Source of the DNA: an uncultured Nitrosomonadaceae bacterium
GTDB lineage: Bacteria; Pseudomonadota; Gammaproteobacteria; Burkholderiales; Nitrosomonadaceae
DNA length: 64,000 nt
Direction of reading: 5' to 3'
Assembly (NCBI GenBank): GCA_943787405.1
Contig: CALSMH010000001.1
Location: 62,001 to 126,000, forward strand
In this document: in pieces, positions 2,187 to 45,958 of the stretch
How positions within the stretch are numbered: position 1 is the stretch's first letter
Layout: every line of letters starts with the position of its first letter
Made by a program: the position numbers and the translations under genes
Notes under the pieces: model-generated
The model's database searches: none
What the model was told of the DNA's origin: nothing
Seen by the model: the letters and a program-made list of their open reading frames with translations, nothing else

Positions 2187-2927
2187 ATGAAAGAAAAATT
2201 AACTTTCAAGCAAGATGTCGACTCAATTATTGGATCTAAAAGTCTCCTGAAACACCCATTCTATGTCGCTTGGACTGAAGGAAAACTTTCAAAGCATCAG
2301 CTACGTAAATACGCTGAACAATACTTTCATAATGTTTTAGCTGAACCAACTTATTTAAGTGCAGTACATTTCAATACTCCTCATTTCCATACTGAAACTA
2401 ATAGTGGCGATATCAGTGTTCGACAAGAGGTATTAGAGAACCTAATCAGTGAAGAATATGGTGAAAAAAATCATCCTGGCCTATGGAAAAACTTTGCATT
2501 AGCTTTAGGTTCAAGCGAGAAAGAATTAGCTAATGCAACTGCCTTACCTGGTACAGAAAATCTTGTTACAACTTTTCGGGATATTTGCCTGAATCAACCA
2601 TTCTATGCTGGCCTAGCAGCTATGCATGCATTTGAATCACAAGTACCAGAAATTGCCGCAGTAAAAATTGATGGTTTAGCAAAATTCTATGGGATGAACA
2701 ATCCTGATAGCTATGAATTCTTTACAGTACACCAGGAAGCTGATATCCATCATTCAAGGGCAGAATGGGCCTTAATTGAAAGGTTCGCTGATACCCCAGA
2801 GAAAAAAGCTGAGGTTCTGGCTGCTACTACCGAAGCATGTAATGCTCTTTGGAAATTCCTTGATGGAATCTATGAAAATTACTGTTCGGATCTCAATATT
2901 GAATGCAAAGAAGTGACAATGCATTAG
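2187..2927 (+). CDS. CADD-like metalloenzyme, probable p-aminobenzoate synthase
   Basis: The 246-residue protein has the all-helical TenA/PqqC/haem-oxygenase-like fold and aligns along nearly its whole length with Chlamydia CADD (CT610) as I recall that sequence. The CADD metal ligands correspond to E89, H96, E150, H182, D186 and H189 here. Also present are Y26 and K160, equivalent to CADD Tyr27 and Lys152, proposed to supply the ring and amino group of p-aminobenzoate in a self-sacrificing reaction. A homologue from Nitrosomonas europaea (NE1434) was reported to support p-aminobenzoate synthesis. The product would feed folate synthesis in the cytoplasm. I chose the ATG at 2187 because GAGG precedes it; the in-frame ATG at 2091 adds 32 unrelated residues and lies in a -10 box. 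No thi or pqq context supports a TenA or PqqC role. Confidence 0.82.
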   Translation: MKEKLTFKQDVDSIIGSKSLLKHPFYVAWTEGKLSKHQLRKYAEQYFHNVLAEPTYLSAVHFNTPHFHTETNSGDISVRQEVLENLISEEYGEKNHPGLWKNFALALGSSEKELANATALPGTENLVTTFRDICLNQPFYAGLAAMHAFESQVPEIAAVKIDGLAKFYGMNNPDSYEFFTVHQEADIHHSRAEWALIERFADTPEKKAEVLAATTEACNALWKFLDGIYENYCSDLNIECKEVTMH

Positions 2928-2932
2928 AGAAT

Positions 2933-2985
2933 CAGGATACGATTACAAACTATAAGTATCTCTATATAGTGTGAATTCTATCCTG
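2933..2985. terminator. Weak nested hairpin between convergent genes
   Basis: CAGGATA (2933-2939) pairs with TATCCTG (2979-2985), and inside it ACTATA (2949-2954) pairs with TATAGT (2965-2970). It lies between the convergent CADD-like gene and glnD, where a bidirectional terminator is expected. There is no T-run, so the call is tentative. Confidence 0.25.
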
Positions 2986-35285: not shown

Positions 35286-35918
35286 TTATTTTTTAAATTT
35301 TACCCGGTATATCAAAGCTCCAATGATAAATGTTGGCACTACAACCAATGCAGCGGCAAGTAATCCCATTGTCAATGCACTCATTAAACTACCTGATGGT
35401 GAATATATCGTAGAAAAAAACAATGCCAGAAATCCAGCACCCCCTCCGCCAAGGAGCATGAATTTCTTACCCCGGCTATAAAATCGCCAGAGGGCCCCGG
35501 AAACACGCGTCTCATCTCGATACTCGTCAAATATCATGTCTAAGCTATTGTCATCCTGCTCAGCCTCATAACCAGCAGCCAAAGCAAGTGTTTCGCTACT
35601 CTCTTCCCCCCGAGAAAGGTCTTTCAAAAGTGCGATTCTTTTCGCCGCATTCTTATTACTCATTCCGGTTTTTAGCAGCATCTTATACAATGATTCCATC
35701 GCATGCTCACGTGGGTTTGATACTGAATCTAGGCTTTCACCATGGCGCCACATAACCCCAATTAAATAAAGATGAATCGTCATTATTTTAAATGGGGGCG
35801 CAAAATCATATCCCTTGCTTTCAACATGAGATAACTGCGAAGCTAATATTTTTTCGCCATGCAGCACACAAATATCGTGCGTTGAAACGTCAGTTTCCAA
35901 TTTATTGTCCAATATCAT
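35286..35918 (-). CDS. Unknown protein with C-terminal two-helix membrane anchor
   Basis: I do not recognise this 210-residue protein. Residues 1-140 are hydrophilic, probably helical and rich in charged residues (MIFDEYRDETRVSGALWRFYSRGKK). Residues about 145-205 form two membrane helices (GGGGAGFLALFF and MGLLAAALVVVPTFIIGALIY). It ends in a basic RVKFKK, so both termini are likely cytoplasmic. There is no signal peptide, enzyme motif or cysteine cluster. It lies alone between folD and a divergent exported protein gene with a 352-base gap. Confidence 0.65.
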   Translation of the reverse strand: MILDNKLETDVSTHDICVLHGEKILASQLSHVESKGYDFAPPFKIMTIHLYLIGVMWRHGESLDSVSNPREHAMESLYKMLLKTGMSNKNAAKRIALLKDLSRGEESSETLALAAGYEAEQDDNSLDMIFDEYRDETRVSGALWRFYSRGKKFMLLGGGGAGFLALFFSTIYSPSGSLMSALTMGLLAAALVVVPTFIIGALIYRVKFKK

Positions 35919-36270: not shown

Positions 36271-37032
36271 ATGAATAAAGCATATGGATGGACTTTACAT
36301 CTAAAATGGATCGCTGTGCTGATATCAATGATGGCGATGCCGGCTTATGGGCAATTAATGATTGGTCATATGGGCCATTCTTCAGGCGATGACTGTAATA
36401 TTAAAACAGGTCCCATCCCTTTAAATTACAGTGTCTATGAAAAACCAAAGGGGGCGCTTCCACCGACAATGGCCCATTGTAAACATGTGCCAAATATGGG
36501 AGAACATTTTGTAACGGTTGACCTTCAGGGTAATAAGTACCGTGTAATACCAATTGGTATCCGCCTAGTCTTAGTAGAAGGGGGACAGAATAAAACTATC
36601 ATGACCAAGGCTCCAGAAAAATATACGTCTGGAACTATTAATTTTGGACTCAATTTTAAAGAGTTGGGTCAATATAATATACTATTAGAGACTCTAGAAA
36701 ACGGCAAAATGACTACTAAAGTTACCCTTCCTTTACATGTTGGTGAAGGCGGTGGCCATGGCGGCCACTCTGGTTTTGGTATGCTTGAGATTGGTCTATT
36801 GTTAGGCGTAGGAGGTATTGCTGGCTTCTTCTGGCTCCGTCGCAAATCAAGTAAGGATGAGGAAAATACGCACCTCCTTGCAGAAGCAGAAGCTAAGGCT
36901 AAGGCAGAAGCTAAGGCTAAGGCAGAAGCTAAGGCTAAGGCTAAGGCAGAAGCAGAAGCTAAGGCTAAGACAGAAGCAGAAACCAAGTCAGAAGCAGAAA
37001 CCAAGTCAGAAGCAGAAACCAAGACAGAGTAG
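36271..37032 (+). CDS. Membrane-anchored periplasmic protein with His/Met-rich site and Ala/Glu/Lys-repeat tail
   Basis: The family is not recognised. The 253-residue protein has a signal peptide ending near AYG; the mature N-terminus QLMIGHMGHSSGDDC is rich in His and Met, and a second cluster is TMAHCKHVPNMGEH. About 100 residues that look like a beta-sandwich follow, then HGGHSG and one membrane helix (about 167-188, MLEIGLLLGVGGIAGFFWL). A basic stop-transfer RRKSSK puts the C-terminus in the cytoplasm. The last 50 residues are near-perfect repeats of AEAKAK then AETKSE. Copper binding is a reasonable guess from His/Met/Cys content. GGAGAC precedes the ATG, and a terminator follows, so it is a single-gene unit. 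Confidence 0.75.
   Translation: MNKAYGWTLHLKWIAVLISMMAMPAYGQLMIGHMGHSSGDDCNIKTGPIPLNYSVYEKPKGALPPTMAHCKHVPNMGEHFVTVDLQGNKYRVIPIGIRLVLVEGGQNKTIMTKAPEKYTSGTINFGLNFKELGQYNILLETLENGKMTTKVTLPLHVGEGGGHGGHSGFGMLEIGLLLGVGGIAGFFWLRRKSSKDEENTHLLAEAEAKAKAEAKAKAEAKAKAKAEAEAKAKTEAETKSEAETKSEAETKTE
36880..37029 (+). repeat. In-frame tandem repeats encoding an Ala/Glu/Lys tail
   Basis: Degenerate 6- to 18-base repeats: first units of GCAGAAGCTAAGGCTAAG (AEAKAK), then units of GCAGAAACCAAGTCAGAA (AETKSE). All repeat lengths are multiples of three, so changes in copy number would keep the frame. Encoded residues alternate acidic and basic and should form a long charged helix. Confidence 0.9.
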
Positions 37033-44466: not shown

Positions 44467-44817
44467 TTAATCGTCCCACTCACCCTTCATCACTCCGTTC
44501 TTGTAAATCCCTTTTTCCCTTACCTGCCCATTTGAATAATAAATAATCCACTCGCCTTCTTCTTTTCCATTCTTAAAACTTACTTTACTCATTAGCTGTC
44601 CATTACTCCAATACCCAACCCATTCACCTTCTTTTTTTCCGTCCTTTATATTTCCTTGTTCTTTCCCCGTTACTTTCCCTGTAAAAGGAGTTTTACTGGA
44701 TTTCTCATAATAAAGACCATCTCGTTTCACCAGTTCACCCATAGTTTCACTAAAACAAGGAGTAGAAATAAGTGACAAAAAAAATATTGGAAATAGGAAT
44801 AGTGTTTTTATTTTCAT
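44467..44817 (-). CDS. Exported MORN-repeat protein (YwqK-like), short form
   Basis: A 116-residue protein with a Sec signal peptide (FLFPIFFLSLISTPCFS) and about two and a half MORN_2-type repeats with the pattern G.W..Y..NG....KV.FKNGKEEGEW. It is clearly related to the protein at 45482-45958, sharing LIS, PFTGKVTGKE.G..KDGKK and the repeat core. Relatives are often labelled YwqK antitoxin family, but no toxin gene is adjacent, and export argues against a cytosolic antitoxin. The C in TPCFS is less convincing as a lipobox than in its paralogue. Confidence 0.8.
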   Translation of the reverse strand: MKIKTLFLFPIFFLSLISTPCFSETMGELVKRDGLYYEKSSKTPFTGKVTGKEQGNIKDGKKEGEWVGYWSNGQLMSKVSFKNGKEEGEWIIYYSNGQVREKGIYKNGVMKGEWDD

Positions 44818-45481: not shown

Positions 45482-45958
45482 TTAATTACTAACCTTCTCT
45501 CCATTCTTGTAATTTCCTTTACTACTTACCTGTCCATTGTCGTAATAATAAACCCAATCACCATCCCCCTTTCCGTTCTTGTAATTTCCTTTGCTACTTA
45601 TCTGCCCATTATCGTAATAATAAACCCAATTGCCATCTCCCTTTCCGTTCTTGTAATTTCCACTATATTTTAACTGTCCATTGTCGTAATAATAAACCCA
45701 ATCACCTTCCTCTTTCCCGTTCTTGTAACTTCCTCTATATCTTAAATCTCCATTGTCGTGATACCCAACCCACTTACCTATTTTTTTTCCGTCCTTTACT
45801 TTACCTTTTTCTTTCCCAGTTACTTCCCCGGTAAAAGGTAATCCACTAAAACCGGATTCTGCATAATGAAGACCATTTCGTTCAACCACAGAATCTGTTT
45901 CAATCGAACAAGAGATAAGAGATAGAAGAAATATCGGAAGTAGGAATAATATTTTCAT
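45482..45958 (-). CDS. MORN-repeat lipoprotein (YwqK-like), long form
   Basis: A 158-residue protein with an N-terminal signal ending in the lipobox SLISC, so it is probably lipid-anchored. After PFTGEVTGKEKG come four 24-residue MORN repeats of the form YKNGKGDGDWVYYYDNGQ. The repeat DNA is nearly identical between copies. It is a longer paralogue of the protein at 44467-44817, on the other side of yhbY. Function is unknown: MORN_2 repeats in exported proteins are usually considered binding or scaffold modules. Confidence 0.82.
   Translation of the reverse strand: MKILFLLPIFLLSLISCSIETDSVVERNGLHYAESGFSGLPFTGEVTGKEKGKVKDGKKIGKWVGYHDNGDLRYRGSYKNGKEEGDWVYYYDNGQLKYSGNYKNGKGDGNWVYYYDNGQISSKGNYKNGKGDGDWVYYYDNGQVSSKGNYKNGEKVSN
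45509..45796 (-). repeat. Four tandem 72-bp repeats within the MORN lipoprotein gene
   Basis: Units begin at 45509, 45581, 45653 and 45725 with GTAATTTCC or GTAACTTCC on the plus strand. The spacing is exactly 72 bases, equal to 24 codons. The first three are nearly identical and the fourth is diverged, suggesting recent duplication from one end. Confidence 0.92.

Follow-up and report, generated by a model that had tools for sequence, protein, structure and literature searches.

What is the role of an exported, membrane-anchored protein of an ammonia oxidizer that carries copper-type residues at both ends of its periplasmic part, but whose gene stands apart from those for ammonia monooxygenase (AMO)? 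To our knowledge, the routes by which copper and electrons reach AMO are unsolved, and a protein of this kind might act on either of them. The gene in question (Table 1) lies in a stretch of 64,000 nucleotides, hereafter the window, from an uncultured Nitrosomonadaceae bacterium (contig CALSMH010000001.1, positions 62,001 to 126,000). An original prediction, made from the letters of the window alone, described an anchored periplasmic protein with His-, Met-, and Cys-bearing ends, a single helix with RRKSSK, and a charged cytoplasmic tail, and it raised the possibility of metal binding coupled to sensing or delivery across the membrane. The motifs that it quoted, the helix, and the tail are all present in the open reading frame as given.

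The reading frame begins with ATG and encodes 253 amino acids. It is a genuine gene and not a chance reading frame, because a whole-protein search of 61 related genomes gives matches in 37, which are all 37 members of the host's family, and no match in the 24 that belong to the order's other families. Inspection of the ortholog alignment places an A-Y-G cleavage site directly before QLMIGHMGH, and thus the signal peptide is presumably cut before Q28. RRKSSK (residues 190-195) directly follows the sole hydrophobic helix; by the positive-inside rule, the C-terminus is expected to be cytoplasmic.

Table 1. Features of the gene and its product (positions are those of the window)
Feature	Residues	Position	Strand	Basis
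Whole gene, stand-alone paralog of the AmoD/PmoD family	253 aa	36271..37032	+	Profile, fold, distribution
Signal peptide	1-27	36271..36351	+	A-x-A/G site of orthologs, by alignment inspection; model helix 4-32
Mature N-terminal arm, QLMIGHMGH	Q28-H36	36352..36378	+	Conservation; pLDDT <50 in model
Stretch between the family's two invariant cysteines	Cys42 to Cys70	36394..36480	+	Alignment of family members
TMAHCKH loop	T66-H72	36466..36486	+	Ortholog comparison
Cupredoxin-like periplasmic domain (predicted)	~40-157	36388..36741	+	Predicted model, Foldseek, fold comparison
Juxtamembrane linker, GGGHGGHSG	160-168 (GGHGGHSG, 161-168)	36748..36774	+	Ortholog alignment
Single transmembrane helix and RRK	about 171-189; 190-192	36781..36846	+	Helix in models
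A/E/K tail, coded by tandem repeats		36847..37029	+	Repeat analysis, ortholog survey

The layout recalls PmoD/AmoD, an already known family of accessory proteins whose function is unsettled (PMC6189053). As a single sequence in phmmer, the window protein gives a weak, co-linear match to PmoD of Methylocystis sp. Rockwell (6cpd, Met49242_1452; E = 0.047, residues 39-149). A profile of 22 orthologs matches the same chain with E = 1e-9, and the next chain has 0.21. The mature part was modeled with AlphaFold2 (mean pLDDT 80.2, pTM 0.66). This model retrieves 6cpd first in Foldseek (E 4.6e-9) and also as the top entry in a fold comparison, at Z 14.3 (116 residues aligned with an rmsd of 3.2) against 9.8 for the next entry, and in these fold comparisons 6cpd scores well above unrelated chains. 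Because the ortholog profile and the predicted model both pick out 6cpd, the window protein is assigned to the PmoD/AmoD family. The likeness that the original prediction had noticed, while being unable to establish homology, is therefore one of common descent.

The other hallmarks of the family are also present. An N-terminal signal peptide is indicated by the model helix together with the cleavage-type site of the orthologs, C42 and C70 are invariant both in 19 family members and in 25 orthologs, the predicted model has the cupredoxin-like PmoD fold, a single C-terminal transmembrane helix (144-166 of the mature model) is followed by RRK, and the genome encodes a copper membrane monooxygenase, with four amoC genes and two amoCAB clusters. 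The 19 family members include AmoD and AmoE of the host and the Methylocystis PmoD, and their only invariant columns are C42, C70, G77, and R91. The window protein thus shares with 6cpd the signal peptide, two cysteines, cupredoxin-like domain, and C-terminal anchor, but it is only 22% identical to it in the structural alignment, and it has an added Met- and His-rich N-terminal arm and juxtamembrane His residues.

Other assignments fared less well. The original prediction had named CopC and PCuAC among families for remote-homology comparison; neither these nor the blue-copper cupredoxin profiles of Pfam are among the four families listed at E ≤ 10, where HMMER filters hide most matches above 0.1, and membership in CopC or PCuAC was dropped for want of a profile match. 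Pfam and NCBIfam scans produced only sub-threshold matches, those of NCBIfam mostly to the tail. PHROGs matches likewise lie mostly in the tail, and the three best matches of a PDB sequence search are ribosomal eL29 chains aligned to the tail. All of these were dismissed.

The family profile detects five PmoD-family genes in the host: two in one amo locus (L035), one beside a lone amoC (L037), one at L036, and the window gene. Two of the host's amoC genes belong to amoCAB clusters (L035 and L038), and two stand alone (L037 and L039). The order at L035 is amoCAB-amoE-amoD-copCD, in which amoA, amoB, copC, and copD were named by inspection. Because this cluster sits elsewhere, the window gene is a paralog separate from the AmoD and AmoE of the operon. 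These two proteins share with the window protein the family, the layout, and both aligned cysteines, but are only 26% and 19% identical to it; by inspection, they have an AHG-type mature end and Met and His residues after the first Cys. The L036 paralog resembles the window protein by inspection in its FPVGFNAY...FC core and C-terminal helix, but it has no His/Met arm, starts with a lipobox-like LISC, and is 24% identical.

In a tree of 41 members (the over-long reading frames at L159 and L161 and the duplicate at L054 were left out), AmoE-like (100/99) and AmoD-like (92/92) proteins each form a separate branch. Opposite this AmoD/AmoE side falls the ortholog group, together with the L036 type and four proteins from Nitrosospira-type genomes, across a weak split (74/96). 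The tree does not recover the group as one clade (two changes), and we relied only on the AmoD and AmoE branches. The L036 gene (3879-4445, minus strand) has as nearest tree neighbors two proteins from Nitrosospira-type genomes. The second amoCAB of the host (L038, 3116-6184, minus strand) is not followed by amoE, amoD, or copCD, and the amoC of L039 (4755-5573, plus strand) stands alone. Beyond copD at L035 lies a gene (2420-2983, minus strand) for a 187-aa His-rich protein that is probably exported and has no NCBIfam match at E 0.001.

The gene is a near-universal, stand-alone, single-copy paralog of the Nitrosomonadaceae. An ortholog at E ≤ 1e-35 is present in 113 of 120 genomes sampled from this family, and in 95 of the 99 better ones. 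The remaining seven have weaker matches only (best 1.3e-21), which we read as paralogs, and these negatives may reflect gene loss or assembly gaps. Across the phylum, the ortholog profile detects 3 of 299 genomes, namely the host, one of Nitrosomonas type, and G245, in which the L162 protein includes the 6cpd sequence. The gene is retained even though the host genome is just 1.45 Mb. AmoD and AmoE are often present in multiple copies within repeated amo operons, which makes genetics hard. A knockout of this stand-alone gene, which has a single match in 112 of the 113 positive genomes, would probe the role of the family directly. In the literature searched, we noticed no account of the ortholog group, its invariant arm, or its hao adjacency (see below), although members may be part of the data set of PMC6189053.

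If the protein binds a metal, the residues involved should be conserved among orthologs. Two alignments bear on this point. One contains the window sequence and 24 of the 29 other ortholog loci obtained by the motif-free whole-protein search (five were left out), and it is the unbiased set for the arm. The other contains 52 mature domains, of which 51 rows derive from a search whose patterns include the N-terminal motif. That search yielded the 80 named loci (the best 80 of 97), among which motif frequency is consequently biased; 29 of the 80 were omitted from the alignment by no fixed rule, save L060, which has a run of N. In the unbiased alignment, M30, H33, H36, C42, C70, and H163 are invariant in all 25 rows, Q28 is Q in 24 and V in one, and the second linker residue H166 is conserved in 23, with gaps in the other two. 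In the motif-biased alignment Q28, L29, M30, H33, G35, H36, C42, C70, and H163 are all invariant, and the arm positions L29, M30, H33, G35, and H36 are invariant in both sets. Thus, the His, Met, and Cys residues singled out by the original prediction are the conserved ones.

The pattern differs from that of the best-studied metal site of the family. The CuA ligands of PmoD are Cys41, Met49, and His51; among the homologs tested, CuA formed only with the motif Cx7MxHxnC, in a dimer, and a PmoD with no motif past CxnC bound copper without forming CuA (PMC6189053). The window protein has no Cx7MxHxnC. Instead, P50 and N52 stand where PmoD has Met49 and His51, and these positions are P or S and N, A, S, or T across the 25 rows of the unbiased alignment. 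In 76 orthologs among the best 80 of 97 loci, the inter-cysteine stretch is free of His and Met as far as four residues ahead of the second Cys, and none of the four exceptions (L119, L124, L125, and L131) restores M-x-H. Because the CuA ligands are missing, a PmoD-type CuA dimer is most likely not formed.

In having both cysteines with no ligand residues between them, the window protein resembles the CxnC-only class, which makes up 29.0% of PmoDs and whose genes typically adjoin copC or genes of unknown relevance (PMC6189053). What sets the orthologs apart from this class is an invariant arm ahead of the first Cys, L-M-x-x-H-x-G-H, and a His or Met three positions before the second. At this last position, 77 of the 80 loci (best 80 of 97) have H and three have M, as does the window protein; at the position immediately before Cys70, 77 have Y or F and three have H, again like the window protein. 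Such an exchange of H plus Y/F for M plus H is what a retained metal ligand would predict, and it suggests a possible ligand on the same loop. The swap in the window subgroup was probably a single evolutionary event. Nitrosomonas orthologs have, in addition, an extra large His-rich loop. In the mature model, pLDDT is below 50 at residues 1-12 (the arm) and 134-143 (the juxtamembrane linker), and clustering of these residues into a metal site is accordingly not visible there. The conserved Met/His arm, the cysteines, and the juxtamembrane His support metal binding as far as sequence can indicate it, although their invariance could come instead from export, folding, or protein contacts.

The cytoplasmic tail has a different history. 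It comprises 64 residues, counted from the end of the 19-residue segment of highest hydrophobicity, and its coding DNA consists of tandem repeats with periods of 6, 18, 24, and others (within 36880-37028). Only 2 of 81 proteins (the best 80 of 97 loci plus that of the window) have a long tail, namely the window protein and L055, with 61 residues; the others have 0-17. Of the 81, 79 reach a true end, and the values for L060 (0, run of N) and L056 (7, contig end) are uninformative. L055 belongs to a sister genome, and its tail is unlike that of the window protein in length and order, whereas the preceding domains are 99% identical. The tail is best seen as a young, lineage-specific extension that would have no conserved role.

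A genomic link to hydroxylamine oxidation exists in part of the family. At two Nitrosomonas-type loci (L049 and L050), the gene is followed on its own strand by genes for a 570-aa multihaem protein, HaoB, CycA, and a NapC/NirT-like cytochrome. The haoB and cycA calls exceed the NCBIfam cut-off at L049; we read the 570-aa protein as hydroxylamine dehydrogenase (HAO) though its NCBIfam matches, like those of the NapC/NirT-like protein, are below the cut-off. Of 14 Nitrosomonas-type genomes that comprise four contigs or fewer, hao lies within 410 bases downstream in 11 (G010, G019, G022, G031, G361, G377, G390, G391, G397, G399, and G410). Of the three others, G432 has only a 40-residue hao fragment, G425 has none, and the nearest hao of G016, an N. 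europaea/eutropha-type genome, is ~48 kb away. Among the 80 named loci (best 80 of 97), hao is seen directly at L107, L113, and L133, and 33 more Nitrosomonas-side contigs end less than 700 bases from the gene. Of these 33, 26 have sequence in common with DNA that precedes a hao copy or with the interval between gene and hao at a linked locus, and the other seven do not; contig ends so near the gene would fit a repeated hao copy that follows.

The linkage need not mean cotranscription. A promoter-like TTGACAG element occurs in the gap at three of four linked loci inspected (L049, 7313; L050, 7230; L170, 3109; but not L169), and the identical stretch that linked hao copies share with other copies of the same genome extends 0-243 bases upstream of hao and does not span the gap in any of the four genomes compared. 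For these reasons, the hao cluster probably has its own promoter, and the gene and hao need not form an operon. Moreover, the link concerns one of usually three hao copies, and the idea that the gene generally forms an operon with hao is contradicted by G016, by the host, where no hao adjoins the gene, and by the few-contig Nitrosospira-type genomes, in which adjacency is found in none of six (G015, G027, G033, G035, G368, and G372). The neighborhood hints only weakly at some role at the AMO-HAO step.

In the reading that we favor, with a probability of roughly 55%, the membrane-tethered protein carries copper in the periplasm for use in ammonia oxidation; that it binds copper, hands it over, and has AMO as its client are all parts of this proposal. 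The exported protein would be held at the membrane by its one C-terminal anchor, with the cupredoxin-like domain in the periplasm. The flexible Met/His arm, the Cys42/Cys70 pair with its flanking His and Met, and the juxtamembrane His would probably capture periplasmic copper, which might then be held or passed to copper sites in the machinery of ammonia oxidation, chiefly those of AMO.

An unlikely alternative is that the protein transfers electrons, with the Cys pair and the N-terminal His/Met forming a copper redox center, possibly dimeric, that passes hydroxylamine-side electrons to AMO. Family members with Cx7MxHxnC do form dimeric CuA (PMC6189053), and the adjoining hao of most few-contig Nitrosomonas-type genomes would suit such a role. 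However, the absence of the CuA ligands, which extends to nearly all orthologs, is an argument against a PmoD-type electron carrier, tested homologs without the motif made no CuA (PMC6189053), and the hao link is limited to one lineage. The cysteines might instead serve as a disulfide only, in a metal-free protein that supports the structure or assembly of AMO or of internal membranes. The Cys41-Cys65 disulfide of crystalline PmoD offers a precedent, and stabilization of pMMO in the membrane is one role that its authors weighed (PMC6189053); this reading is nonetheless improbable, as it leaves unexplained both the invariant M30, H33, H36, and H163 and the His-rich loop of the Nitrosomonas orthologs.

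Copper might also be bound for buffering or detoxification in the periplasm and not for delivery. His-rich insertions and His/Met termini would serve this purpose as well, but a membrane anchor and near-universal single copy suggest a dedicated component, and no copper-resistance gene was recognized by eye among the neighbors, so that we regard this explanation as quite doubtful. Least credible is a sensor in which the periplasmic domain detects copper and the tail signals. The full-length model does predict one unbroken helix (171-249) that runs from the membrane into the tail. However, the sensing across the membrane by way of the tail that the original prediction entertained is not supported, as the tail is a lineage-specific tandem repeat missing from all but one of the other orthologs seen complete. 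Its rarity and repeat origin, as well as its divergence between sister genomes, speak against signaling by the tail, a role that we rejected, and no signaling gene was recognized by eye nearby.

The carrier proposal can be extended, tentatively and with considerably less confidence, to a third kind of AmoD protein that lacks CuA. Such a protein, present as one copy in nearly all betaproteobacterial ammonia oxidizers, would have its own ligand set (the N-terminal Met/His arm, the Cys pair, and the His or Met beside Cys70) and, through its tie to the hydroxylamine dehydrogenase cluster in part of Nitrosomonas, might connect the supply of copper or electrons to AMO with HAO. A protein in which the CuA motif is gone and copper-type residues are kept could help to separate electron transfer from copper delivery.

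Among the neighbors of the gene at 24-50 kb of the window, no copper gene was recognized by eye. In the host and its genus-mates, the gene lies between what we take, by inspection, to be a folD/aceE-side block and a peptidase-pyrC-pyrB block. The divergent neighbor (35286-35918, minus strand) encodes a 210-aa protein with a hydrophobic C-terminal part, whose Pfam and NCBIfam matches are far below cut-off; it adjoins the gene in the genus of the window but not in the other genera compared. The two hao copies of the host are elsewhere (L173, 4448-7179, and L174, 2548-6821, both on the minus strand); haoB follows each of them, accompanied at one copy alone by two cytochrome genes that are cycA- and cycB-like by inspection. 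Farther along the window, two genes on the minus strand (44467-44817 and 45482-45958) encode related small exported or lipoprotein-like proteins that form one sequence cluster and are present in sister genomes too.
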